DNA from: Naegleria lovaniensis
Taxonomy: Eukaryota; Heterolobosea; Eutetramitea; Acrasida; Naegleriidae
Reading direction: 5' to 3'
Assembly: GCF_003324165.1 (NCBI RefSeq)
Contig: NW_025407829.1
Location: 124,001-188,000, forward strand
Length of the DNA stretch: 64,000 bases
Below, piece after piece: positions 7,179-62,589 of this stretch; the stretch's first letter is position 1, and each line of letters starts with the position of its first letter. Below the pieces are notes generated by a model. The model did no database searches. It was not told the DNA's origin and saw nothing but the letters and a program-made list of their open reading frames with translations. Position numbers and translations under genes: made by a program.

Positions 7179-10040
7179 TTAATTGGTCTTTTTCTTTTTT
7201 CTTTGAGGACGAACTTTGGGTTGCTCTTCATCTTCACTTGACACATATTCTTCTCCAGAGTATTCTTCTTCTTCCTCCTCTGACTCCTCTCCATCGTCAG
7301 AATTGTACGAAAGATCTTCGTCGCTTTCTTCATAGGTGGAATCCATCTCCTCATCATCATAGTAATCATCTCGCTCAATAGGTGATCTATCACCACGCTC
7401 GAATGAATCTATCTTAGGCCTGTTTTTAAAACAGAGTGTCACAAAATGTTCATCTTCCATTTCATCACCCTTGGCATCTTCGTGGACCTGCTCATCATCA
7501 TCTTCTGACATTGCATTAACAACATCAAATTCACCTTCCTCCAATAATGTAATCCAACTAAATGGAAACACTGGCACCTCCCCAAAACCAGCCAACTTGG
7601 CAGGAGAATTGAAATTACTGCCTTCGCCATCGTGGTCAATGAAAATTGAATCGGTCCAATATTCATCAATTTTTCGAGCATACACATGACATGAATCCTT
7701 CAATGCTTCCGTTATTAAGGATTTTTCGTGAAGAAAAATGATCAAGTTCACAGATTTTCCAATTTGTGATTGGTTAGCACACACCTGTCGTAGAGCCTTC
7801 TCGTCCGCAAGTTCAGCCTTCTTGAAATACAATGCAATAGATTTGAGGAAATATTGCAAAACATTGACCCTGTATGTGTTTGCATATGTTTCTGAAATAT
7901 TTAGTATTCCTTTCAATAAGGCACATTTCACAACATCTATTTTCTCCAAAGGAATGGATTCAGGTTCTAGTTGGTCCCACAAGTTGAATTGATTCAATAA
8001 ACAAACTGAATTTTTAGAAGTGACGTGTGCCGAGTCAACGACTGTTTTCCCGTCACAATCAATTCCGTTATAGATTTGCAATTTTCCTGTTCCCCACTTA
8101 AACCAGTCAATGTATATGAGCGAAATTGCTCGATCATTTACAAGTAATTGTTTGAAAGGCCAACGATCTAATCCTTGTGAGGACTGGATAGTGACGTCAG
8201 TATCCCAAAAATTTGATTTTTCATAAAAGTCTTCAATGGTGCCATCACACAAACCAGTAAGACACTTGTAGTAAACTTTTCTATCCTCATTGACCCAGCT
8301 GAAATTCATTCCACAATTGAAGGATGATTTAGTGAAGCACTTTGGAAGGCAAATAATGTGTTGCAAATTTGCTAATTTTTGTTTTGAGTTAAATCCTGTA
8401 ATTCTTGACGAAACGTTTTCTACAAATTGTTTGTAATGGGTCGCTACTTCTCTATTGAAAGGGATGGTATTAATGTATTTAAGCCCAACTGGAATAATCA
8501 CATCTGTTTCTTCACTCATTTTCGAAAACATCATTTGTGTAACTACACCTCTAAACTCTAACGTTTTTTTGTATTCTTGAACTCGTTTCTTGGCAAAGGT
8601 ATTGTCGTTGTACTGATTTCCTCCGTAATGATAATAATCGTGCCAGAATTTGTATCTCTTTTTTGATTGCTTTTCTTTAGGTTGTTCGTCGTGTGCAGTT
8701 TCTATCTGATGCATTGACAGTTTGGTTGAGCAATTATAAAATACCAGAGTTGTTAAGTTTGGCATGAACTCGATCAATCGCATCAGCTCGTTTGTTATGG
8801 CCATGTTACAAAAAACAATTCGGGTGGCATGTAAAAACTTTGAAAAAATGGAACACCACCAAGAATAAGGAGGGATGTTATCCTTCAGAAATCCAAAATG
8901 AAGCTCCAATTGCTTGTAATCACTATTAATCAAAATATTTGACATTCTATTCCACTCTTGACACACTCTTTGTACGATTACAAGGTCAGGTAAAACATTA
9001 AGATATTTAAAAATTTCTCGAAATATTTCTATAGGAATGCCGGCAACCCATAAATTATTTTGATTTGCTTCTGACATGACAATGGGCCCCTCTGCAATTT
9101 TCATTGAGTCAAAAAAGCTGGAACTAGCATTATTGATCGAAGAAGAATGTGTGTTTGTAACCAAATGCTTGTACAAGTCTTCGTCTCCTTCAAACCAAGC
9201 AAAATATTTACATCGTTCATGTTGAGCACTAACTCCACAACACCAAAATAATTTCCCCTTGTTTGGTCCTTCTTTCACTACTCGAAGTAATCGGCAAGGA
9301 GTGTTTGCATGCTGTTGACATGTTGGGATTTGTAAATTATTTGTGTTCGGTGTGACAATGTTACTACAACCTGCAGGCTCCTCATCATCGACTGTTGCCA
9401 TGGTTGATTTTTCGTCATTTGATGAATTTAGAGAAGAAGAGGAACTTGCTGAAGGAGGGGTCGAATATTTTGGAACCAAATGTTTGTACAATTCAACATT
9501 TCCTTCAAACCAACCAAAATGATTGCACCGTTCATTTTGAAAACTCATTCCACATGCCCAAAATAATTTCCCCTTGTTTGGTCCTTCTTTTACAACTTGA
9601 AGCAATCGACATGGGATATTGCTGTGTTTTCGACATGTTGGAATTTGTAAATTTGTTGCATTCATTGTTGTGGTATTCGATTGGTGGCTTAAATTTGTGG
9701 TACTTGCACTTGACGAAGAAGATGCAATTGGCTGTTGAAGATTTTGAGAGATCAATAGCCCTTCATTCGGATAATTCAATGTTGAAACCGATCTTGCGAT
9801 CACGGGTGATGTTCTCTGTTGGGGCGAGCTTTGATTCAATTTCGGGCCACGATCCTCATCAGCCCACTGAAAGAATTTACAAAAACGTTCCGAACACGAA
9901 TAAAACCGTCGTCCCTTGTTAGGACCTTGTTTAAATACAGTGAGTAAGACCGAAGGACGAGGAGGAGAACATTTACAATTCGGAGGAAGAGAGGATCGGG
10001 TGGATGCTGGGGGTGGACTAGACGGCAGAGGTTGTTGCAT
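7179..10040 (-). CDS. triple GRF zinc finger plus F-box protein, paralogue A
   Basis: Single-exon frame of 953 residues starting at an ATG preceded by a long T/A run. Three GRF-type zinc fingers stand in series near residues 20-60, 125-180 and 235-290; the latter two show PTC, PCRLL, GPNKGKLFW and ERC..F.WFEG. GRF fingers in other proteins (APE2, NEIL3, TOP3A, ZGRF1) bind single-stranded nucleic acid. An F-box follows near residue 330 (LWVAGIPIEIFREIFKYL), suggesting a substrate adaptor of an SCF ubiquitin ligase. The long middle part is unrecognised. The C terminus is strongly acidic and then basic (RPQRKKKK). The next gene upstream is a tandem paralogue with two GRF fingers. Role is inferred: recognition of a nucleic-acid-bound substrate for ubiquitination. 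Domain calls are solid; the function is not shown. Confidence 0.85.
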   Translation of the reverse strand: MQQPLPSSPPPASTRSSLPPNCKCSPPRPSVLLTVFKQGPNKGRRFYSCSERFCKFFQWADEDRGPKLNQSSPQQRTSPVIARSVSTLNYPNEGLLISQNLQQPIASSSSSASTTNLSHQSNTTTMNATNLQIPTCRKHSNIPCRLLQVVKEGPNKGKLFWACGMSFQNERCNHFGWFEGNVELYKHLVPKYSTPPSASSSSSLNSSNDEKSTMATVDDEEPAGCSNIVTPNTNNLQIPTCQQHANTPCRLLRVVKEGPNKGKLFWCCGVSAQHERCKYFAWFEGDEDLYKHLVTNTHSSSINNASSSFFDSMKIAEGPIVMSEANQNNLWVAGIPIEIFREIFKYLNVLPDLVIVQRVCQEWNRMSNILINSDYKQLELHFGFLKDNIPPYSWWCSIFSKFLHATRIVFCNMAITNELMRLIEFMPNLTTLVFYNCSTKLSMHQIETAHDEQPKEKQSKKRYKFWHDYYHYGGNQYNDNTFAKKRVQEYKKTLEFRGVVTQMMFSKMSEETDVIIPVGLKYINTIPFNREVATHYKQFVENVSSRITGFNSKQKLANLQHIICLPKCFTKSSFNCGMNFSWVNEDRKVYYKCLTGLCDGTIEDFYEKSNFWDTDVTIQSSQGLDRWPFKQLLVNDRAISLIYIDWFKWGTGKLQIYNGIDCDGKTVVDSAHVTSKNSVCLLNQFNLWDQLEPESIPLEKIDVVKCALLKGILNISETYANTYRVNVLQYFLKSIALYFKKAELADEKALRQVCANQSQIGKSVNLIIFLHEKSLITEALKDSCHVYARKIDEYWTDSIFIDHDGEGSNFNSPAKLAGFGEVPVFPFSWITLLEEGEFDVVNAMSEDDDEQVHEDAKGDEMEDEHFVTLCFKNRPKIDSFERGDRSPIERDDYYDDEEMDSTYEESDEDLSYNSDDGEESEEEEEEYSGEEYVSSEDEEQPKVRPQRKKKKTN

Positions 10041-10145
10041 TTTTTTTTATTGTTTTTTTTTGGATTCGTTTCTCGTTCTTCCTGCTAGTCGAACTCAACG
10101 AAATATATCCAAGCTATATTCTTCAATCGGCTTTCTTGCATTTGA

Positions 10146-12416
10146 CTAATGCAACTTTTTCTTTTTACGTTGGGGTTGAATTCGTCGTTTGGGAGGTTGT
10201 TCTTCTTCAGGCTCCTCTTCGTTTTCGCTCATTTCTTCATTGGTGTCAGAATTTTCACTATTTTCATTGTTTTCAATATTTTCATCGTCTTGTTGTTGCT
10301 CAGAATTTGAACTAAATTTTCCAAACTTCAATAAACAGGTCCAACTGAACGGAAACGGAGAAACTGGTCCATACGATGGTAATGATCCTACCGAATCATT
10401 GGCATCGTTATCGTCTTCATCGCTGGCAATGAATGATTGATGTGTCCAATATTCATCAATTTTTTGAACATGCTCCAAACATGAATCAATCACTTCTTGC
10501 GTCATTAAATGATGTTTGTGAATGAAGACTAATAAATCAACACACATGCCAATGATTGAGTGCTTCTTGCACAAATAAGTGAGCTCATCTTTGTCACCGC
10601 TCACCATTTTTCTGGAATATTCTCGAATTTTGTCGAGTTGGTACTTGAGAATGGGCAAATGGGATGCCTGTGGTAGAGGTTGTGTTAATTTGAGGGAACC
10701 CTCAGCAATAGCAAATTTTAACAGATCGATATTGTTCGTTGGGATAATATTTGGATCAATATTTTTCCACAAACAGAAATGCTTGTAAATTTCAACTTGT
10801 TTAGAAACACTAAGATCCACACGATCCACCACTGATTTTGCATCGCAATTAATTCCGTTATAAATTTGAAATGAGCTACTTCTATGGTTCATCAAGCTAA
10901 AGAAAATGAGAGAAATTGCTCTATCTTGAACTAGTAATTGTTTAAATTTCCAATATTTTTCTGGCACGATGTCTGTTTCACTGCAAGTAGTGTTCGCTTT
11001 GTCAAAAAATGAATCGATATTTCGTTCACATTTTGCATCAATGCATTTGTAATAAACTTTTCTATCCTTATTGATCCAGCTAAAATTCATTCCACCAGCT
11101 CTTGACTCAACGCAAATGATGTGTTTTAAGGCCTCCAACTTTCTCTTTGATTTGAATCCTGGTATTCTTGAAGAAACATTTGTTACAAACAGTTTGTATT
11201 CTTCTCCAACTTGTTTGTGAAAAAGTGTTTCATCCTCAATGTCTTTCAATCCATGTGGAATGATGACATCCTTGTCTTCATCCATTTTAGAAAACATCAT
11301 TTGTGTAACAGTGCTTTTAAACTTGTGAGTTTTCTTGTAAGCTTCAATTTCCTCTTTTGTTAAATTTCCTGCAAATCCTCCATGCCAATACGAATGCCAA
11401 TCAAAATTTTCATAGTATTCATCTGGATAGTCCTCCACTGGGTCATGCACGCTAACGTCTACTTGATAATTGGACATGACAGTACTGCAATTGTTAAAAA
11501 CTAGAGTTTTCAAATTTGGCATGAACTCGATCAATCTCATCAACTCATTAGTGATTTTCATGTTGCAAAAGATCACTCGAGAGGAGTATAAAAACATGGA
11601 AATAATGCGACACCACCAAGAATAGGGAGGAGTAGACTTGCTGTATTCTTTTAAAAAACCAAAATTCAAATCCATGTCAGTATGCATTGAAACAGCAAGA
11701 GTGAACATTCGTTTCCATTCCTTACACACACATTGCAATTTAAACTGATCAGGCAATTCAAGAGATTTGAAAATCTCTCTAAATATCTCGATTGGTAATC
11801 CAGCCACCCACAAATTATTTTGATTGGTTGCTGACATGACAATTGGCTCCACCACCTCATTGTCTTTTGTGTTGTTGAATGATGAATTCAAAGAAGAGGA
11901 ACTTGCTGAAGGAGGAGTTGAATAATTTGGAACCAAATGTTTGTACAATTCAACATTTCCTTCAAACCAACCAAAATGATTGCATCTTTCATTTTGAGAA
12001 CTCATTCCACATGCCCAAAATAATTTCCCCTTGTTTGGTCCTTCTTTTACAACTTGAAGCAATCGACATGGGGTATTGCTGTGTTTTCGACATGTTGGAA
12101 TTTGTAAATTTGTTGTTGTTGGTACCGATGATGACGAAGAACTTTGTTTCGTTGTTACTGATCGACTCGTATTACCCATCATCGTACTATTGCTGTTACC
12201 ATTAATATTGTTGTGATTATTGGCAGAATTATTCCGAGATGAATCATGATGATTGCTTGTTTCTGCCCATTGGAAGAAATTACATCCACGCCGAGCACAC
12301 GTATAAAACTGCCTTCCCTTGTTGGGTCCTTCTTTCGCCACAGTTAATCTCTGGGAAGGCATCGGAGGAGAGCATTTGCAATTCGGAGGAGGAGGAGGCA
12401 AAGAGCCTTCTGACAT
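10146..12416 (-). CDS. double GRF zinc finger plus F-box protein, paralogue B
   Basis: Single-exon frame; I start it at the ATG at 12416 (MSEGSLPPPPPNC, preceded by seven A residues), not at the upstream TTG in frame, giving 756 residues. It has a classical GRF finger near residues 12-50 (NCKCSPP, GPNKGRQFYTC, CNFFQWAE), a second near 105-155, and an F-box near 215 (LWVAGLPIEIFREIFKSL). The rest is collinear with the neighbouring gene at 7179-10040, including MNFSWINKDRKVYYKC and an acidic then basic tail (RIQPQRKKKK). The third finger of paralogue A is missing. The two genes are in tandem, same strand, about 105 bp apart, so they arose by local duplication. Part of the second finger is nearly identical in DNA to its counterpart in paralogue A. 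Confidence 0.85.
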   Translation of the reverse strand: MSEGSLPPPPPNCKCSPPMPSQRLTVAKEGPNKGRQFYTCARRGCNFFQWAETSNHHDSSRNNSANNHNNINGNSNSTMMGNTSRSVTTKQSSSSSSVPTTTNLQIPTCRKHSNTPCRLLQVVKEGPNKGKLFWACGMSSQNERCNHFGWFEGNVELYKHLVPNYSTPPSASSSSLNSSFNNTKDNEVVEPIVMSATNQNNLWVAGLPIEIFREIFKSLELPDQFKLQCVCKEWKRMFTLAVSMHTDMDLNFGFLKEYSKSTPPYSWWCRIISMFLYSSRVIFCNMKITNELMRLIEFMPNLKTLVFNNCSTVMSNYQVDVSVHDPVEDYPDEYYENFDWHSYWHGGFAGNLTKEEIEAYKKTHKFKSTVTQMMFSKMDEDKDVIIPHGLKDIEDETLFHKQVGEEYKLFVTNVSSRIPGFKSKRKLEALKHIICVESRAGGMNFSWINKDRKVYYKCIDAKCERNIDSFFDKANTTCSETDIVPEKYWKFKQLLVQDRAISLIFFSLMNHRSSSFQIYNGINCDAKSVVDRVDLSVSKQVEIYKHFCLWKNIDPNIIPTNNIDLLKFAIAEGSLKLTQPLPQASHLPILKYQLDKIREYSRKMVSGDKDELTYLCKKHSIIGMCVDLLVFIHKHHLMTQEVIDSCLEHVQKIDEYWTHQSFIASDEDDNDANDSVGSLPSYGPVSPFPFSWTCLLKFGKFSSNSEQQQDDENIENNENSENSDTNEEMSENEEEPEEEQPPKRRIQPQRKKKKLH

Positions 12417-12605
12417 TTTTTTTGTAACCTTTCCCAACCAACGAAAATTTCTGTAAATTGCAAGAATCGCACAAAGAGTAGATCGGACATGTTGAAGATC
12501 TGAGAACTCGCCCTTACAAAAGTAACATCAATTATCCGTTGTAAAATCTGTGGTAACCGTTCGACGATTGCCAAACTAAGCTTTTAGGATTTTCATCTCA
12601 AAAAA

Positions 12606-25720: not shown

Positions 25721-26022
25721 ATGTGAATTGTTGATATTTTGAAATATATTATCAAGTATGACTATTACATTCGAATCTGTGATTAGAAAACGTATTGAAT
25801 GTTGTCTAAATAGATGGTAGAATTGAATTAGGAATTGTTTTTCGATCGTTGCCTCACTTTCAGTTTCGCAAGAATTCCAAGATTACCATAAAAAGAATAA
25901 ACCATTCCAAAATGACAAAAATTTCAAGAAACTGTCTTGGAACTGCTGTTCATTTCGCTACTCAATTCATGTTGTTTTACCAGCTTGTGAAATAATTTCC
26001 GTCTTTGTTATGGAAAGAAACA

Positions 26023-26726
26023 ATGAAACTCAGTTTGGCCTATGGTGCTGTTGCTGCTCCTTTCTTTTTCATTATTTGGACGTTGTTGTTTGTGTCCATC
26101 ATACTATATGTTCTCAAGAGAAAAGGAATGAAGAAGAATCAACACATCTTGTTTGTGTTGGCCATTATGTTGACAAGTGTAGTGGCTACAAATTAACTTA
26201 CCTGAAATTACTGAATTTGGTAGTTTTGAAGTAATAGGAATGAATGCATCCTTTTACGCTGTTTTACGCCATTCTTCTCGCTGCACAAAGAGAAATAATT
26301 AACTACTTGGTCTGGCATCATCTCTTAATGATGGCTTTTCTTTGTCATATAAGTACTTTCAAAACTGCCATAATTAGAATTCTCAACTAATCTCAATAAC
26401 AGTTTTGACTCTATTTAATAGTTTGGTCACTTGTAAAGAGACAGGTGCCATTACTTAGACCCAATATACACATCCAAACTTTGGTCATTTACATTTCTGG
26501 TTGGCTCATGATGTCAGGATTCACTCTTTGTTTCTCTTTTAATCTCTGGTTACAAATTGAACAAATAATTGCAAAAAAGCATCAGAACATTGAAATTCAA
26601 AATGAAAAACAACAACCAGTAGAAGCTCAACTCCTCAATTCTCCTCCAGAAGAGGACACTTCGAAGCAAGCTGGTCTTGTTGTTGTTGGATGTGTGAAAA
26701 ATCGAGAACATACCATCTGTTTATGA
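26023..26726 (+). CDS. small putative membrane protein, spliced model or degraded gene
   Basis: Two separated hydrophobic reading frames can be joined by a 245-nt GT-AG intron (exon 26023-26176, exon 26422-26726) to give 152 residues. Three hydrophobic segments are seen: AAPFFFIIWTLLFVSIILYV, ILFVLAIMLT and TLVIYISGWLMMSGFTLCF, followed by a polar Glu/Gln-rich tail. It is much shorter than usual multi-pass receptors, and the intron is longer than most in the window, so this may instead be the remnant of a larger receptor gene. A stretch near the start (26031-26065) is repeated with changes at 28743-28777. Family not recognised. Confidence 0.35.
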
Positions 26727-27678: not shown

Positions 27679-27741
27679 GGAACCAGCGTGAATCGAACAC
27701 GCGACCACTGGATGGCTGCTGCAAACCTCATTGCAATCCAA
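27679..27741 (-). pseudogene. 3' part of a split tRNA-Cys gene
   Basis: Read on the minus strand, this segment begins in the anticodon stem (TTGGATTGCAA), carries a 17-nt intron-like stretch, then the other anticodon strand, the T-arm (GCGTG, TTCGATT, CACGC) and the 3' acceptor strand TGGTTCC, followed by a run of seven T residues as in a pol III terminator. It is nearly identical to the intact gene at 28799-28888 from the anticodon stem onward. The acceptor 5' strand and D-arm are absent here. The matching 5' part lies on the same strand at 32283-32314, so I read the two as one gene separated by an insertion. Confidence 0.8.
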
Positions 27742-28798
27742 ATCATGCACAGGCAAGGGAAACAAAGAATCACATCCCAATTCTGCATTCATGGCTACAA
27801 CAATACGTCTCGGATCTTTTGATAGCCATTCAATATCTCGAGTGAGATTGATCGTGTGGCTAATTTAATCCGAAAATAAAATAAAATCAAAAAAAAATAT
27901 TCTACAAGTAATGACTTCTTTGTGTATCGGAGTATAATAGCCGGCAGTTCATCTACGCGCGATGTTCCAATGGTTGTATGCTCAACGATGAATTTGAGGT
28001 CATTACGGTTTTGTTGTTTAGTAACCACAAAAATTGAAAATCAATTAATCCCATCATCTGCACTTTATTGATGAGACTCCGGTCACAGAAAACAACAACA
28101 CTAAGCTTTTAAAATTAATTGTATTTAAAAATTGCTTGATTCTTCAAACAATCAGCCATACAATCAATCACACAGTCTCAGCTTTCCCTTGCTCAAAAAT
28201 GGAATGATTATAAATATGTAACAATCGTTGTTGGCCATAGTATTAATAGAGTCATTTTTAAAAATACTCTTAATTTGTACCTTGAACTATTTAGGAAAGC
28301 TACATTTGTGACATAATTTAAGAATATTGAAAGACAATATTAATCTTCAATTTTAAAAAAAAACAATGACCGATGATCTATTTTCGATAGTAACATGTCG
28401 ATGTTATATACTTCGAGTGACTCTTTCACCGATGAGGGAAATATTTAACGAACAACATTGTTTCAGAACTAACTTTTTATATCCAAAAGATACTAACTGT
28501 TTGTAATGCCAAAACATTGAAGCTTCAGGGGTAATGATTACAATCACTATGTATCTGCTCTTAGTTCAAATGAAGATGCTAGATTTAGTGTTGTGTTTTA
28601 TTGTCATAAATTCCATATCCATCGTAAATCCTATTTATTTTATTGCCTCAAAATAAACACAAAGTTCATTGTATCACACGTCAATCTCTCATCTCCATCC
28701 AAAAACAAATACAAATGTATTACATTTCTACCAATGATAATTCAGTTTGGTCTCTGATGTGGTTGCTGCTCCTTTCTGGCTAGAGAGCAACACCGTAC

Positions 28799-28888
28799 GG
28801 AACCATAGCTCAGCGGTTAGAGCATTGGATTGCAATGAGGGTTTGCAGCAACCATCCGGTGGTCGCGTGTTCGATTCACGCTGGTTCC
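28799..28888 (+). tRNA. tRNA-Cys (GCA) with an 18-nt intron
   Basis: Perfect acceptor stem GGAACCA with TGGTTCC, D arm GCTC-AGCGGTTA-GAGC, anticodon stem TTGGA with TCCGG, and T arm GCGTG-TTCGATT-CACGC. The anticodon loop reads TT-GCA-A, then an 18-nt intron at 28836-28853 in the standard position one base after the anticodon, then A. The anticodon GCA reads Cys codons. Box A and box B are intact and five T residues at 28893-28897 form a pol III terminator, so the gene looks functional. It lies inside the putative element that splits another tRNA-Cys gene on the opposite strand. Confidence 0.93.
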
Positions 28889-29070
28889 TAACTTTTTCAC
28901 AAACGACGCTTTGTCTTATTTTTCAACCTGCGATTTTCGAATTGTTATAAGAGATAATTAAACACATCAAACAACCCTTCAATAAATCTGATCTCCCAAA
29001 AACAATTTGGATCAGAAATTTTTAAGGAGTCCATGTGGTGAACACTGTTATGAAACATGTTTATTTCAAG

Positions 29071-29291
29071 ACAATTTTTTGCTGCTCGATCATGGAACTG
29101 CCTGTTCTAGGATCTTTCGAAATTCTGTAATAGTGTTCTGCCAACTCACTTCTACCCAATTTTCTTACAAATTCCTCGTCGTGAGTGATGACAATTACTT
29201 GAAGTTGGAGAGTTTTCTTCTGTCTTCAATCAAGAATCGGAGTGACTCGGCTAAACTGATGGCGTTGTCAATATCTAGGGCATTTGTAGGT
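29071..29291 (-). pseudogene. duplicated fragment of the RAD50 3' end
   Basis: This 221-nt stretch matches 34405-34626 inside the last exon of RAD50, in the same orientation, with only two substitutions and one 1-nt deletion that I can count. It covers codons for roughly residues 1243-1315 and stops just short of the RAD50 stop codon. No start, splice site or upstream exon accompanies it, so it is a non-functional copy. The near identity says the duplication is recent. Confidence 0.92.
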
Positions 29292-29535
29292 AATAAGAAT
29301 TATGTAGCTATTGAGGTTGTATTTTCATTTTCGGTTTCATAAACGATGGAGAAGGCTGTGATGACAGTGTGATTATTTTTTCTTTGACATTTTTAATACG
29401 ACAGCTAAGGACTGTTAAACGATAAGCCTTATTCTCGACAAGCCTTAATGGCCACACTATCGAAGCATGGAATACAGAATTAAATAATTAAAAAAACATC
29501 ATCACATATATTCATTACTTGGAATATCTAACGTC

Positions 29536-32221
29536 ATGGTCCGAAAGAATAACAACATCAATAACCAGAAAAGAATGAAAGAGGAAGATGAAATCAAGAT
29601 ACATGTCAGTGATGACGATGTTGCAGAAATTGTTTCATTTGATGATGATCAACTTCAAACTTCGAAATTTAGAAAAGTCTCTTCCTCTTCTTTGACAGCA
29701 AAAGAACTGAGGGACAAGGTACCTTTAACTCTCCAATTCCGCTCAGATCCTTCCGTTGTAGGTTGCTCATCTTCAGAAACGAAAGAGTCATCCGCCTCAG
29801 CGCTGACTTCCTTGACTTTCCAAGAGAAAACTTCCAAGAACAGCGTTGCAAAATCTGAAAGCAAGGCTCGTTCAAGAGATCCTTCAAGCAGCTCCTCCGG
29901 TCGAATGAAAACAGAAAGGTTCAAATGGAATCCAACAGAAGAGATTAGGCTTTTTAACGTTGTTGAAGGATGCAAGCTAGCCAACAATAAACCAAGTTGG
30001 ACTGCCGTAGAACAGCATTTCAACAAGGAGGGAGCACCTTTCGTAGCCATGTCTGCCCTTCAAAACAAGTACTCCACCAAAGTTAAGAAGCTTAATATTA
30101 CACCGGAAACTGAGAAAGGCTCATTGCTCTTGATTTCATCGTCTTCAGCAATCCAAAAGATGATAAAAGATGCAATGGTTATGGCCGATAACCAAGTAGT
30201 TGATGATATTATTCAGAATATCCCAGTAGAAGCATGCAAAATGTTAAAAGGAGAAAATATGGAGTGGTTTCCTCCTGCCACAAACTCTAACACCAGTCCA
30301 ATGCTGAACAACTTGAGATGCTTAATGATTGGATTGCTCGATGGTAAATTATCCTCCTCGTTAAGCAAAAATATTAACAGGGATCTCTTAGCTAAAGGCC
30401 ATTTGCTCATGAAGTTTCCCAAATTGATATATTGCAAAATTTCTCATGCACAGTCCTTTGAGAACGAGGTCAAAAAACTTGGTTATATTGAGGATTCGAC
30501 TCTACTAGAGAAGATAAAGATGAGCATGTTGGAAAAAATTGAAATTAAGGAAGAAACAATTGTGTCTCGCTCTACGTCATTCTTCGTTCGGACTGGTTAT
30601 GGAAATGTAGATAGCTTGGAAGTTCAATACCTGACTGAAACAGTGGACTTACTGACTGTTGAGGTGTTAAGCAACAATCAAGTCGTGTCAAGATTTGCTC
30701 CTTTTCAAGTAGAGGAAGTGATCTGCCAAAAGGAAGATGTTTTGAAAATTAATAATGGAAGTTTGGACTGCTTTGGTGCAGATAGTGAGGTGCACCGCTC
30801 ATCTCGTCTATTACTGGAACATAGGGTTTTAAAGAAATGGAATGGATATGTCAACATTTTTAACCCTTCTCGCCCTTCATTAATGCAGGTTTCAGAGGAA
30901 AGAGCAAGGAAAATATGGGGAGATAGGTTTGAAACAAACATCCAAAAAGGTTCCGATTTGAGAATCTTAAAGTCGCAAAGCGTTGGCCAGTCCAGCTCCA
31001 TTAAAAGAGCCACCTTGTGCTGGGAATATTGCGAGCCAGATGAACATTTTGGTAGGTTATTTGTTGAACATAATTTTAGCTCACACTATTACAGAGCAGA
31101 TGTTGATGGATTATTTCTCATTCACAAACCTTTCAAAGGATAAAATTTTGGAAATTGGTGGTGTTATTCTGGGACTATGGTTAACAGACGGGAGCAAAGA
31201 TTCTGCATCCATTTGTCTCTCCGGAAATGAATTAATGTTGGTCAGATGGTTGATATCTCAGTTTGAAATGTGTTCCCCTCAAAGCATGCCGTACTTTAAG
31301 CAATGGTATGCCAAAATTATTAAGGATGGCGAAGAGGAGGAAAGTAGGGCGAATATACTCCTATTTGATGATTTTAATGAAGATGAATCAAAGTTGAAAC
31401 CGAACATTAGATTTTGCGAAGGAGATTTTTTTCTTAATGGGCAAGGTTTTGTAGATCCATCCTGTAATTTTGTAAATCAAGGTAAGGCAAGGCAACATAT
31501 TTCAAATGGAAGACATTACGTAGGTGTATCTTCTAAGGAGTCAGATGAAGAAACAAGGAACAAGATAGACACTATTTTGAGATCTAATGGATACTATACG
31601 TCGTTTTACACAGTCCATTTCCCAGGGGCTGAATTTCTTTCATTCTTGAGGAAGGTTGGTTTGTTGAAAAACGGAGAGAAATGTGTTCCTTCCAAACTGT
31701 ATTTTTCGAGATCAAGGTTGTTATTGGGTTTTGCAAAAGGAGAAATTTATGGAGATGGGTCTAAAGATGGAAATAGATTCTTGTTCACGCAGAAGAAGGT
31801 TGATCCAGTAAAGATTCTCCAGTTTGGTTGCGTGGCCAATGGAATGTCAACTGGTAAAATTTTATTAGATACGGAGGCGGTTTACCCATGTTACCATATG
31901 TACCTTTATGGGTCAGGTCTTCGTAAATGGGTTGACGATTACTTTCCCAAGAAATCAATTAAGGCAGAACAGAATATTTACACTCGATCTCATACCACAA
32001 GAGAAGGAGATAAAGAATCCAAAATGTTTAAGCTCAAAAGTGTCATGAAGGCTGATGACCATGTTGTTGGCAGATTTCTTGTCACAACACAAGGAGTGTA
32101 TTATGCTATTGGCGAGAAGGATGTTTTTTTGCTTTCCAACAAAGGTGGGATGCAGGTTGTGAAACACTCGGAAGCGTTAAGCGAAGTAATACCATCATTT
32201 ATTAATGAGCTAAATCATTAA
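29536..32221 (+). CDS. Myb/SANT-like plus HO/VMA-intein-like LAGLIDADG endonuclease
   Basis: Model: 29536-31051 joined to 31095-32221 by a 43-nt GTAGGT...TTACAG intron, 880 residues. A Ser/Lys-rich N terminus is followed by a Myb/SANT-like segment near 128-190 (FKWNPTEEIRLFNVVEGC, W..V..HF). The C-terminal half shows two LAGLIDADG-type helices: ILGLWLTDGS (near 530) and LLGFAKGEIYGDGS (near 720), each with the catalytic Asp. Both resemble the yeast VMA intein and HO endonuclease (LLGLWIGDG and LAGLIDSDG), and the run-up VGLLKNGEKCVPS resembles LGFLKDGVKNIPS of the VMA intein. The end (YYAIGEKDVFLLSNKGG) resembles the Hint strand VYGLTIEGHKNFLLGNK of HO. Terminal splicing residues (Cys1, His-Asn) are not evident, so it is likely a free-standing, non-splicing endonuclease. 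It lies inside a split tRNA-Cys gene. Domain similarity was judged by eye. Confidence 0.72.
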
Positions 32222-32263
32222 ACATTCATCAGTAAACAGATCCATCAATCGCTCACCATTCAA

Positions 32264-32453
32264 AAAACGTGTAAAACGAATAAATCCAATGCTCTGCCGC
32301 TGAGCTATGGTTCCTTATGGTAATGTTGAAATTCATCTCACTACCAAGTGTTGTTACCGGTCATTTGCTCGAGCTTCGTCTCTCATTGCTTTGCTTAGTT
32401 GGGACGATGGAATAGAATGTCAAACAGCTTACAAAACGTGTAAAACAAATAAA
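32264..32453. repeat. 21-bp direct repeat flanking the 5' tRNA-Cys part
   Basis: AAAACGTGTAAAAC followed by gAATAAA at 32264-32284 recurs with one change at 32433-32453, 169 bp away. The first copy runs across the right boundary of the putative element; the second lies in the flank beyond the 5' tRNA part. Confidence 0.65.
32283..32314 (-). pseudogene. 5' part of a split tRNA-Cys gene
   Basis: On the minus strand this reads GGAACCATAGCTCAGCGGC then AGAGC and TTGGATT: the 5' acceptor strand, a complete D arm (loop one base shorter than in the gene at 28799) and the 5' strand of the anticodon stem, stopping at U33. It then diverges completely. The missing anticodon, T arm and 3' acceptor are found at 27679-27741 on the same strand. 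Confidence 0.82.
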
Positions 32454-34397
32454 ACGTTGCAAATCACGAAAATTCCAGTAAATCAATAGCATGTATAAAT
32501 TGATGTTTCATTTGTGCATGGTGTGGAAATTGGTGTTTTTCTCATGTTGGAATTTGTTTTACTTGTTTTCGGTGAAACTTCGAAAAAAACAATTAATTGC
32601 TGAAGATGGAATGAAATATTAAGAATATTGAAAAAAAACGTTAAATCAATAAGAATCTATTGAAGGTCGTATTAAACAGCTATTTACTTCTCCAAAAACA
32701 TCACTGAAAGAAATTACCTTTTTTGTCTTTAGAGGTAAATGAGTGTATTGTTAAGCCGGACAAGACGTATTTTGTGAGGGAACGAGCAACAAATTCTGAT
32801 CAAGCCAATCAAAAGGCCAGAAAAGAAAAGTTATCTCTAAGGACCTTCTTGTGTCTCTTTACACGAATTTGTGATATCTATTCGATAAATTTTGATTTTT
32901 ACTTGAGAGAAATAACTTTCTAATTTACCTTCTAATTAACAACGCACTCGTACCAGGAGCAGATCTGTGAACAGCAAGAGAATGGAATGCAAGGTCGCAG
33001 GTTCGACTCTCTGAGCGAAATCACGAAACTTTTGTTGGTGGCATCAAAACCATAGTTCAACAGGCGCACTATGTGAACGAGGTGGTTGAAAACAAGAAAG
33101 TCGAAGGTTCGATAACTGAATGATGTAGCATTTTTACACCAAAAACATTTGCGGTCACCACGAATATTATTAATTAGGATTTGATGATTCTATTGGAATG
33201 TGAATTAGAAACGCATTTCTTATCTCTCAAATTGTTGGCTCAGGCGTGGAAGGGGTACCTTAAGGCACGTGTTTATATGATAATAGATTCTGTTACAAAA
33301 TTACTGTTATTGTAATTTTTAGAGGGAAATATCGCAAGAAAAATTACCTCAACAACAGAGCGTGTAGTCAACCATGTCCATCAACCAAACACCCTCCCAT
33401 CCCACCTGATGATGTTTCCTCTCCTTGTCATTCCTTATTTTTTCTTCACACCTCATTCACGAAATTCGTGAACAACTCCTTCTTACTTCACACCAATTGT
33501 GAAGTTGTTAAGAATCATCTCTAAATCCAACCTTGACACACTTTGCCTGGAGCAAGCAGGTCCCAGTAGTGAACTTGTTAAGACAACTTGTCTGGTGGTC
33601 ATAGGTATTCGACACAATGTTACCTTAATCTGGTCCGTAGGCGTTAAATCCTGTTAGAAGACATAATCTATCTATCTTTTGGATCAGTGGACTCATGTCG
33701 GATTCTCCAGGAATCAGTTGCGTAAAAGCCAACCTCTGATCCAGCACCTTAGGTCTTGATTCACTTCAGTCTACCTTGAACCACGGTAAGCTCTTGTTAA
33801 AACTTGAAACTGTTCTTTAGTTGTCTTTTACTCACCTTGCCGATAACATTTCTCATTAAGGGTTGCCTCTTCTCATGGGTTCTTGTTCTCCCATGAGCAG
33901 AGGATATTGATCGATGTTAACAATCTCGTCATCTACTCCATTTCAACCCTTTTCACCCCTATGTACCATTCTATACCTTTATAAATAAAGGGATTTACCA
34001 TGCAATTCATGTCACAACCCCTGGTTATCGTTGGATCGTAGTTTGAAAGTGTGTAATAACTGTTTGGGAGAGAGATGGTCGATCATGTGATTGTGACGAG
34101 GAAGATGGTTCAGTCCTCCAATTTGAAGTAGTCACCATGGCACTTGTAATGCCAGTTCAACGTGTGGACTCACCGATAGTGATTTCGTGTTTCCTTCATG
34201 TACGAAATAATAATTTGCGTTGGCAGGTTTTGATGGATAGAAACCATCATAAAATCATCCAATGATCTTTGTTACGTTAAAACTTCCAGCTGGTTCGTCT
34301 AGTGGCTTTTTGCACCAAAGCAATGTCGCAGCCTTTCGACTTGGAGAAGAACCAGCACCAAATCAACAAACGTTTGAGCATTTATTAAATGCAGCCT
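32315..34397. other. intergenic region with decayed tRNA-like sequences
   Basis: No convincing protein gene. Two stretches look like worn tRNA genes on the plus strand: about 32944-33020, with a box-B-like GCAGGTTCGACTC, and about 33047-33125, with a box-A-like TAGTTCAACAG, a box-B-like AGGTTCGAT and possible CATCA/TGATG end pairing. Neither folds fully. The remainder, 33130-34397, holds no feature that I can assign; a small open frame at 34262-34444 runs into RAD50 on the other strand and is probably chance. Confidence 0.45.
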
Positions 34398-37300
34398 CTA
34401 ATCAACAATTTTTTGCTGCTCGATCATGGAACTGCCTGTTCTAGGATCTTTCGAAATTCTGTAATAGTGTTCTGCCAACTCACTTCTACCCAATTTTCTT
34501 ACAAATTCCTCGTCGTGAGTGATGACAATTAATTGAAAGTTGGAGAGTTTTCTTCTGTCTTCAATCAAGAATCGGAGTGACTCGGCTAAACTGTTGGCGT
34601 TGTCAATATCTAGGGCATTTGTAGGTTCATCTAGAGCCAATATTCCACAATCAATACTAAATGCCTCAGCTAGTGCAAGACGAATAATAAGGCAAGCAAG
34701 AACTTTTTGACCAGCACTAGAACGACCTCTCATTGGCAATTCTACATCGCCTTTGACCATGACCACACGATAGTTATATGTTTTTCTGGCAGACTCTGTT
34801 TCAGTGTCACACTTAATGCTGATGGTGTCAATGTCGTTTCCTCGATATGTTTTTTGCCAAAGTTCCTTAATAATCTCATTAATCTCTGCCATCTTCATGC
34901 TGTGGTATTTTGTGAGAGCCTTTTCGAGTGCCTTCATGTACTTGTCTAAATCTTCTACAGCATGCTTTGTTGTAACAACCTTGATGAGTAAAGACTTGTA
35001 CTTGTTTTCAATATCCTTATACTGATCAGAATTGAGTTGTTCTTGAATGTCCTTAACTCTTCCTTTCATTGTGCTTCTCATTCCTGATATTTGAGATTTT
35101 TCATTAGAATATTTAGTTTGCTTTTCTTTCAATTGTTTGATGTCTTCATATGAGTCCAATGATGCATCGCTACCTGTAATGTTTTCGATTTGTTTGGTCA
35201 ACGTTTCACATTCGGTAATAATATTTGTCAGCTCCCTTTTCTTTTGTCTGTATTTCAAATTGTCTTCAATGTTTTGCTTAATGACATTTTGCTTCTCAAG
35301 ACCTTTGTTGTACTTTTTAAGAAGCTCAGACAACCTGTCATTTTCCTTTTGATTCTCGTCAATCTGAATCACCAACTTGGTAATTTTAGATTCAACATTT
35401 TGCAAATTTTCTTCAATACCCTTCTCCTTGTATTTCTTGAGTTCTTGCACGGAAACATTAAGTTTGGAAATGTCTTGCTGATAGTCTGTGATTGAGCCCT
35501 CAAGCATGAATTCTTCCTTTCCATGCTTTTCCTTCATCTCGTTTAACATCTTATTGTATGATTGATATTTCTCTTCAAGAGTAGGTATTTCGAGGTTAAT
35601 TTTTTCAATTTCTTGACCTTTTTGGTTGATTTCTGATTGCTTTTCATTAAGAGAATCCTGAAGCCGCTTCAACTCTTTCAAGTCGTATTGAGCCTTTTGC
35701 AAGCTGGTGAGTTTTTCTCGCAACTTGTCTTTCATTTTGGAAAGCTCATTCTGACAATTTGTGAGCTCCTGTTGTAACTGGGAATGTCTATGGGTAAGCT
35801 TTTCTCGTGAGCTTTGGGCATCTTCTAACTGTTGTTTCACTTGTTCATATGGTACAAGATCTTGTGGAAGACCAAGGTTTTTGAGAGCAGTCTCTTGTTC
35901 AGTGATACGCTGTTGCGTGATTTTGATGCTATTTTGCAAAACTTTCAATTCTCCGCATCCATTTAAAAGCTCTATTGCCTTCTTTTCGTCATTCTTAGCT
36001 TGGTTAATTTCTTCTGTCAGCTTTTCAATCGTTTCATTGAGGTTTGTAATTTCTTGCTTAATGTTAGAAGCTTCCATCTCGAATTGAGGAAGGTCAGAGG
36101 TTTTCAATCGTTCGATATCTGCAACAACAGGTTTGATTTCTCGAAGCTTTTCCAATACAGAGCTAGCTGATTCAAGTCTTTCTTTCGTCTTTTTCAATAG
36201 CTTAGGTGTTTGTTCCATTTTTCTTTGTAGTAGAGATTCAAAACTGGAGCACTCTTCTTCGGTATGAAATCGCCTCTCGCAAACCAAGCACTCTTTGTGA
36301 CTGCTTGCATGGAGAATAAATTTTTCATAGCAAAGCTTTAATGCTTCATCAATGCTTGCTCGATTTCTTAGATCGTTCACCTCCGTTTCTGCTTGTTTCA
36401 TTGCCTCATCCCAAGTCTTTCCTGCTGGGAGGACTGCAGCCACATGTTGTTGCTTGTTTTCAATATCATTCTTGATTTTTTGTGCTTGATTGTTAGCAGT
36501 GTCTAGCTTTGATTTTTGAACAGACATAGATTTCTCCAAGCTTTGTAACGATGAAGTAAGCGTTTGAACTTTGTCAGTTGCCTTCTTGATCAGTCCCTTG
36601 ATCTTAACTTCAACGTTCGCAGCTGTGACTTCATTGTCAACACCTCCCAAAGCTGTTTCATATTTCGTTCTGACTTCAGAGAATTTTTCGTTCAAACTTG
36701 AATTATGCTTGACAAGCTCCTCCCTAAAATTCTGAATTTTGAAACAAATATCTTTTTCCTTTTCTCTCGAGGCTAGTTCTTTGTTAAGGTTAGTGATTTT
36801 CAAGGTCAAATCTTTCTGATTTTTAGTGTTTGTTTCCATTTCTTTCTTGATAGTATCCATCTCCTTGTTCTCCTCTTTGTCTCTAACTTGTTTTTCAAAA
36901 GTTGAATATTCTCTTTCCATGTCAGATACCACAGCTTCGGTGATAGAAATGTGTCGAATCGACTCTGAAAGTTTCTTTGCTTCGCTCTCTAAAACGGTCT
37001 TTCGTTGCATAGCGGTTTTCACCCTGGAGACGCTATTTTCTTTTTGCTGCAAGAATGAATTGGTTTCTTTTAAGAGACTCTCTTGTTCAGTTTTATGTTC
37101 TCGTCTCTTATTTTCAAGTTCTTTCTTTTCTTTTTGAAAGAGCTGCTCAAGTGAGCTGAGAAAACTGAAAATCTGACTTTCTGAAAAAGGAGGATGCTCA
37201 TATCCTGGTATGTGATATCTTTGTGAGAAGACCATAATATCAGTGCTCATATCATGAATACGGCCTTCATGAGCTTCCTTTTGGGACTTCAACATTCCCA

Positions 37301-38585
37301 TACTTTCTTTAAGAGTATTCATTTGGTTATTGAGGGTCTTTTTGGTTGTTTCATTCTTTGCAAGATCATTCTCAGTCTGCTTTTGACTTTGTTTCAATTG
37401 TTCGAGTTGCTTGGAGAAGTTTTCTTCAAACTTTTTCACTTCTTCGTCCGTTTCAGTGAATTCTTGCTGTAAGTTTTGATACATTTCTTCAACATCCTTT
37501 TCCATCATTTTCTTTTTAGTGTCTGCAGATGTAAGCTTTTGTTTAAGAGCATTAACCTTTTGAATAACTCCTTCGTATTTCTCAATCTCTGAATTTACTT
37601 GATTCAACTTTTCATCCAAGTCCTCAATCTTTTCTTTCAACTTTTGAAGCTTGATTACTTCATTTTCTGCTTCCTTGCGCAATTTAACGCTTTGATTTCG
37701 TTCAGTTTCTGAAACAGCCAAATCTTTTTCATGCTCTGCTAATTGTTGTGTTATGTCTTTCTTGGTTTTTTTGATAGCTTCTAAAGCCTTAGAATATCTA
37801 GTGCTAGAAAAGATATCATCAAGTTTTTTCTTTAGTACAGTACTTTCACTGAGTGGCCAATTTACGTCCTCTTGGTGACAAAAGATAACTATTGTGTATT
37901 ATTTCATTGTAAAACCAGTTAAGGTTCATAATAATTAAACATACCATTCTCCAATATTGCTTTGCTCACGCCCATTAGTTCAGGAATTAATTTGTCCATA
38001 TCTGTGCATTTGTAGCTACTGCTTTTGGTTTCCCCGTCTTCTCCCTTTGTAGAGAGAACAGATTCCAATTGTTTAAATTGTGTAGTTTTCTTTTTTTGCG
38101 TCACTTGAAAGCTACGCACTGTAATATATTTCTTCTTATTCGCTGCTTTGAATTGCAATCTAATTTGACCTTTCACTTCTGTGTCTCCTGATACTTTTGG
38201 GTCATGAACGAATGATTTGCCTCTATCACAATTCGGAGGGAGTTCACCAGTGGTAGCGCATTTCAAACATTCAATGAGTGTCGTCTGAGGATAATAAATT
38301 TTGTAAATAAATCAAGAGGGCAATATTCATGCCAAGGGTAATATCATCATAAAATAATTATCCAAATTATTAGAATAATTATTATTTCAGCAATAAAGTA
38401 GTAATAAGGATCGGAACGAGAAGAATCAATACCATCCAACATTATAATATCCTTTAACTTACTTTTCCTGATCCGTTTGCTCCCAAAATGATTGTCAATG
38501 GTTTAAAGAATTTAATAATTTGCGGTTCTCCGGTATGATCAAAAGAACGAATACCGCTTACACTCAGCCAATCTAATGAAGACAT
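34398..38585 (-). CDS. RAD50: DNA double-strand-break repair ATPase Rad50
   Basis: Three-exon model 38585-38463, 38284-37945, 37888-34398 (1317 residues, close to human 1312). The first intron falls inside the Walker A: exon 1 ends GANGSGK and exon 2 begins TTLIECLK. The second restores ENVIFCHQEDVNWPL. Long antiparallel coiled coils surround a zinc hook at about residue 687 (CLVCERRF, CxxC), and the C-terminal lobe carries the signature RGRSSAGQKVLACLIIRLAL and Walker B CGILALDEPTNALD. With Mre11 and Nbs1 it tethers and processes broken DNA ends and activates checkpoint signalling. The last 220 nt are duplicated about 5 kb downstream within the tRNA-Cys element. Assignment is firm. Confidence 0.97.
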
Positions 38586-62322: not shown

Positions 62323-62440
62323 GGCTACGGCCATATCACGATGAATGCACCTCATCCCGTCCGATTTGAGAAGTTAAGCATCGTCGAGCTGCATCAGTAC
62401 TGAGGTTGGAGACAACTTGGGAACCTGCAGTGCTGTAGCC
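62323..62440 (+). rRNA. 5S ribosomal RNA
   Basis: 118 nt closed by a perfect 9-bp helix I (GGCTACGGC with GCTGTAGCC). Internal control regions are recognisable: AAGTTAAGCATCGTC (box A region) and CAGTACTGAGGTTGG followed by GGGAACCTG (box C region). Five T residues at 62441-62445 give the pol III terminator. Only one copy is present in the window, so this is a dispersed 5S gene or one not in a local tandem array. Confidence 0.93.
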
Positions 62441-62589
62441 TTTTTGCCTTGTTGAAAAGTGTCAACGCTACCTCAGTTGGATTTGTTTTCACAGCAGCTC
62501 GTTGTTTTTTGGTAATGCTGTTTGACCGTAATAGGCTTTAATCTTCCAACCTGGCTATCCCATCAACAGAATTCCAATTCAACTGTCCA

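Follow-up and report, generated by a model that had tools for sequence, protein, structure and literature searches.

In a 64,000-nucleotide stretch of the Naegleria lovaniensis genome (assembly GCF_003324165.1, contig NW_025407829.1, positions 124,001 to 188,000; hereafter the window), we found a tRNA-Cys(GCA) gene that is split at the anticodon loop by a 4.5-kb insert, with the same 7-nt sequence at both breaks. The insert contains an intact tRNA-Cys gene, a copy of the 3′ end of the nearby RAD50 gene and a long coding gene whose product resembles the LAGLIDADG family and keeps the aspartates of both motifs (Table 1). We regard it as probable, at roughly 0.6, that the insert is a homing-endonuclease type of nuclear mobile element, which would work like the WHO elements of yeasts and carries a tRNA-Cys. 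A first-pass annotation, made from the sequence alone, had guessed at a homing element. That guess gains from the putative intein-type LAGLIDADG gene in the insert, and it overlooked the carried tRNA-Cys copy and the RAD50 3′ fragment, which together make WHO-type elements, and no longer a simple homing insertion, the closest parallel.

Table 1. Features of the interrupted tRNA-Cys locus (window coordinates)
Position	Strand	Feature	Basis
27679..27734	-	3′ part of interrupted tRNA-Cys, from anticodon G34, including 17-nt intron	Direct reading; ARAGORN on rejoined gene
27735..27741	-	TTGGATT, one of two direct-repeat copies (7 nt) flanking the insert	Direct reading
27742..32282	.	Insert, 4,541 bp	Its removal with one repeat copy restores an ARAGORN-called tRNA-Cys
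27742..28798	.	AT-rich (67%) stretch, 1.06 kb, without long open reading frame	
28799..28889	+	Intact tRNA-Cys(GCA) with 18-nt intron, proposed replacement copy	Rfam, 56.2 bits; ARAGORN
29071..29291	-	Frameshifted copy of RAD50 3′ end	222 columns, 98.6% to 34405-34626, E 1e-107
29536..31051	+	Exon 1: low-complexity N-terminus, Myb/helix-turn-helix-like segment (29899-30129), then region without family match	
31052..31094	+	Proposed 43-nt spliceosomal intron, GTAGGT...TTACAG	Restores single 880-aa frame; PI-SceI similarity spans junction
31095..32221	+	Exon 2: LAGLIDADG motifs GVILGLWLTDG and GFAKGEIYGDG; C-terminus weakly like an intein end	
32283..32314	-	5′ part of interrupted tRNA-Cys, terminating in second TTGGATT (32289-32283)	Direct reading
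34398..37721	-	Resident RAD50 (full copy), 3′ part; source or sister copy of the fragment	Pfam SbcC_Walker_B E 1e-4, below curated cut-off

Direct reading of the minus strand showed that the tRNA-Cys gene is severed after U33. Its first 32 nt (32314-32283) end ..GCATTGGATT. A second TTGGATT (27741-27735) precedes the remainder of the gene, which lies at 27734-27679, so that the 7-nt direct repeat (AATCCAA on the plus strand) is present at both breaks. The first-pass annotation had reported the split and the repeat, and both stand; it had run the 3′ part from 27741 to 27679, and the gene does resume there, with the 3′ part proper starting at 27734 because the longer span includes the repeat. 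AATCCAA occurs 34 times and TTGGATT 20 times over the 64 kb, and a matching 7-mer at two set junctions is therefore not expected by chance. When the insert (27742-32282) was deleted in silico together with one repeat copy, ARAGORN called a tRNA-Cys(gca) of 88 nt whose intron is 17 nt long, in agreement with the earlier claim that the halves rejoin as an intron-bearing gene, and it called no tRNA on either tRNA/insert junction region taken separately. With default settings ARAGORN called zero tRNAs over the window, because the tRNA genes of the window contain introns; a look through the literature for Naegleria tRNA-Cys introns found nothing. All paired positions of the rejoined tRNA-Cys are sound, which points to little decay since the break. 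Insertion into a tRNA-Cys gene, as first proposed, is thus well supported by the order and orientation of the halves, the repeat, the seamless restoration and the undecayed pairing.

The insert opens on the left with 1.06 kb of AT-rich DNA, followed by the intact tRNA-Cys and, 180 bp further on, by the RAD50 3′ copy; after another 244 bp comes the endonuclease-like gene, which 61 bp separate from the tRNA 5′ half. The inner tRNA-Cys, which lies in the orientation opposite to the broken gene, is the only tRNA in the window that reaches the Rfam gathering score. An intact copy at 28799 had been noted before, and its existence was confirmed, with the correction that it sits inside the insert. It had been said to differ little from the broken gene, and five places do differ between it and the rejoined tRNA-Cys: one insertion and one change in the D-loop, one change in the anticodon stem, and one extra G and one base change in the intron. 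The extra intron G, about 9 nt from the break, is the closest difference downstream of it. An exact-pattern search for the tRNA-Cys 3′ end in collections of genome and viral contigs without eukaryotic nuclear genomes found none. Between the broken tRNA and RAD50, the plus strand of the spacer has two tRNA-Cys-like stretches (32977-33009 and 33048-33113). Their ends resemble an A-box and a B-box (shuffle p about 0.005 and 0.06), and they could be remnants of earlier tRNA-Cys copies or chance matches.

The long gene of the insert encodes 880 aa in two exons (29536-32221, plus strand). Two open frames overlap at 30983-31143, and excising the 43-nt GT..AG intron fuses them. With codon statistics derived from ten further genes in the window, we found that the gene's frame scores +0.14 per codon and all other frames -0.09 to -0.44; host genes score slightly higher (+0.16 to +0.29). 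There is no other copy of the gene within the window. Both LAGLIDADG motifs keep their aspartate (LTDG, YGDG). In pairwise BLAST against PI-SceI (VDE), with a sequence identical to PDB 1dfa, residues 500-555 matched the first LAGLIDADG region with E 0.001, across the proposed splice junction, and residues 658-727 matched the second with E 0.08, in preserved order. Furthermore, a family profile built from VDE, HO and 12 intein loci of phage or plasmid origin scored the protein at 13.2 bits with both motif regions collinear, compared with a maximum of 8.6 in 2,000 shuffles. Among 77 frames of the window, the sole higher profile score was that of the same gene's unspliced exon 2. A two-sequence hhalign profile (VDE, HO) gave a probability of only 11%, on the right motif, and a PHROGs search of the protein gave no significant match. 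Together, the similarity, remote but significant, supports assigning the C-terminal half to a putative, divergent intein-type endonuclease with two LAGLIDADG motifs.

Comparison with the N-terminal splicing blocks of VDE and HO gave no significant match (p 0.42 and 0.17), and a degenerate N-terminal block near residue 210, picked by eye, failed a shuffle test. The C-terminal block is suggestive at most (YYAIGEKDVFLLSNKGGMQVVKHS against YYGITLSDDSDHQFLLANQVVVHN, shuffle p 0.19) and lacks the terminal Asn. With neither significant splicing blocks nor flanking exteins found, we rejected a splicing intein. Residues 122-198 are Myb/helix-turn-helix-like in Pfam with E 0.027, below the cut-off; the predicted fold of this segment has three helices at low confidence (pLDDT 55), and its best fold matches are homeodomains with E > 1. 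For a zinc finger we found no family match, and inspection of the protein revealed no Cys-X-X-Cys series.

The RAD50 fragment, which lies in the same orientation as the resident RAD50, has its frame disrupted by a one-base deletion. It begins right after the Walker-B LALDE codons (LALDE/PTNALD), and the match ends at the last codons ahead of the stop codon. The fragment lies 244 bp upstream of the endonuclease-like gene's start codon, as expected of the host-gene 3′ fragment of a WHO-type element. It may be either a relic from a previous host site or a patch added in the course of repair.

These features are consistent with the following course of events. The gene product would be a LAGLIDADG endonuclease derived from an intein, free-standing and with a Myb/helix-turn-helix-like segment joined at its N-terminus. 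It would cut a conserved host sequence, most likely the tRNA-Cys gene at its anticodon loop, and the break would be repaired by copying the element in. Interrupted by the element, the target would no longer be cleavable, so that it would be protected from further cuts. The complete tRNA-Cys carried along would replace the broken one ('home and rescue'), and the element would be tolerated, perhaps favoured, because a vital gene is thereby made good. In its fullest form this reading describes a natural home-and-rescue element outside fungi, in which an HO/WHO-like intein-derived endonuclease has a nuclear tRNA-Cys gene as its specific target, the gene stays broken, and the element spreads because it brings its own tRNA-Cys, made uncleavable by an altered intron (the extra G). 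We put forward that fuller form tentatively, as possible and less probable than the general one.

Several points weigh against the proposal. The inner tRNA-Cys matches the target at every position up to 7 nt from the break. The genome may contain further tRNA-Cys genes, in which case rescue may be needless. Searches of Pfam, NCBIfam and PDB with the whole protein returned no LAGLIDADG match, the similarity to the family being remote, and the single-sequence fold of exon 2 was unusable (pLDDT 35). A 7-nt target duplication is not something that homing between homologous chromosomes produces, and it must date from the first insertion. Finally, the evidence comes from one locus in one genome, and a search for relatives of the protein in collections of viral contigs, genome contigs and phages, again without eukaryotic nuclear genomes, found none.

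The RAD50 fragment fits the WHO pattern well, and RAD50 must therefore be weighed as a present or past target. WHO elements swap the 3′ end of FBA1 at each homing and leave FBA1 3′ fragments behind, in the order FBA1 - WHO - FBA1 3′ fragment (PMC7282813). The same order is seen here for the full RAD50, the endonuclease-like gene and the RAD50 3′ fragment, which is in direct orientation, starts at a conserved motif and abuts the endonuclease block, and WHO10 elements still hold their home-gene fragment after moving elsewhere (PMC7282813). A WHO-like element with RAD50 as its home target would cut at the Walker-B codons, replace the RAD50 3′ end by homing and displace the old 3′ end beyond the endonuclease gene; the tRNA-Cys break would then have arisen off target, as a secondary insertion, with the inner tRNA-Cys as a mere passenger. 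However, that account leaves the shared break and the clean rejoining of the tRNA halves unexplained, and for this reason we rank it second and consider it unlikely. In addition, 2.1 kb and the tRNA 5′ half separate RAD50 from the endonuclease-like gene, and the fragment is near-identical to RAD50 at all sites, so that a local repair patch is possible.

An ordinary insertion or local rearrangement, such as a transposon or the capture of fragments by end joining, could also have broken a dispensable tRNA-Cys, with the endonuclease-like gene as a passenger or a host gene. The 7-mer at the insert ends resembles the target duplication of a transposon, and pieces of the neighbourhood (the RAD50 end and a 21-nt copy at the insert's right end) resemble repair patches. 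Yet no terminal inverted repeats were seen, the ends (TATTCG.. and ..CATGAT) not matching each other; the insert's sole long gene had no transposase family match in Pfam, NCBIfam and PDB sequence searches, and that gene is of the homing-endonuclease kind. We consider this explanation improbable, more so than a RAD50 target. The 21-nt direct repeat just mentioned places a 95% copy of 32433-32453, just outside the insert, at 32264-32284. A 46-bp match (85%, E 1e-6) between 28732-28777, just upstream of the inner tRNA-Cys, and 26021-26065, where a membrane-protein-like frame begins to the left of the insert, was considered as a third captured gene fragment and dropped, being weak next to control stretches of the window, which gave comparable matches of 36-39 bp.

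Assemblies are typically mis-joined at sequences such as the near-identical RAD50 stretches and the two tRNA-Cys copies, and an assembly artefact that merged two haplotypes or loci might be suspected. It is very unlikely: the halves join exactly with a common 7-mer, a clean break inside a tRNA is not what a mis-join would be expected to produce, and the insert holds a long intact gene absent elsewhere in the window. The break does fall within the anticodon loop, close to where tRNA introns usually sit, and joining the halves gives a normal structure, but a split tRNA whose halves are transcribed separately and ligated in trans, an arrangement known from some archaea, is hardly credible here, given that the whole intron stays in the 3′ half, the 7-nt stem strand stands in both halves, inspection revealed no complementary extensions at the junctions, each half by tRNA position has one of the two internal RNA polymerase III boxes, and an intact copy sits between them.

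The window as a whole is gene-dense and has few introns, with a GC content near 36%; Naegleria nuclear genomes are gene-dense with 33-37% GC (PMC12482156). Elsewhere in it we observed a 5S rRNA gene among protein genes (62323-62441; Rfam, 104.9 bits) and a tandem duplication of two adjacent minus-strand genes (7179-12437) with long stretches of similarity, as high as 95% over 239 bp; the first of the pair has GRF zinc finger and F-box-like matches.

Among known systems, the element most resembles the WHO elements of Torulaspora and Lachancea (Coughlan et al. 2020, PMC7282813), which that study describes in budding yeasts only. In common with them, it has a free-standing gene for a putatively intein-derived LAGLIDADG protein without exteins, joined to an added, here putative, DNA-binding region. 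The WHO10 insertions of Torulaspora globosa measure 2.8-6.6 kb (4.5 kb here), interrupt a host gene in three of five cases, always have the home-gene 3′ fragment adjoining the endonuclease and in some cases bear other gene fragments (PMC7282813). Damage to a vital target would likewise be tolerated through a kept or imported working copy. This likeness is one of anatomy. There are also differences from WHO: the fragment lies upstream of the endonuclease-like gene, a 7-nt direct repeat flanks the insert, the working copy is reversed and does not consist of a replaced 3′ end, the added segment is N-terminal and not C-terminal, the neighbours are a BTB gene and RAD50 with no FBA1 association, and the host is outside the fungi.

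HO and PI-SceI (VDE) share with the protein the two LAGLIDADG motifs in the same order and a K.(I/V)PS block ahead of the second. In contrast to VDE, which is a splicing intein in VMA1, the gene described here has no extein and no detectable N-terminal splicing block, its C-terminal Asn is replaced and its similarity is remote. If our reading is correct, intein endonucleases have repeatedly turned into free-standing mobile genes by gaining a DNA-binding domain and a piece of their target, of which this would be an independent case in a distant eukaryote. Prokaryotic mobile elements that integrate in tRNA genes also use a conserved tRNA target and bring sequence that preserves tRNA function; those elements enter by means of an integrase and leave a restored target at the junction, whereas the present target stays broken. 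Synthetic home-and-rescue gene drives, at least as outlined in PMC7968924, follow the same logic of copying into a vital gene while supplying a working copy, and are engineered where this element would be natural; if so, it would be a natural instance of breaking a vital gene while bringing its replacement, hitherto familiar from engineered drives. Compared with WHO elements, what is new here is the tRNA gene as target, the complete tRNA copy within the insert and a proposed DNA-binding segment that is Myb-like instead of a zinc finger.

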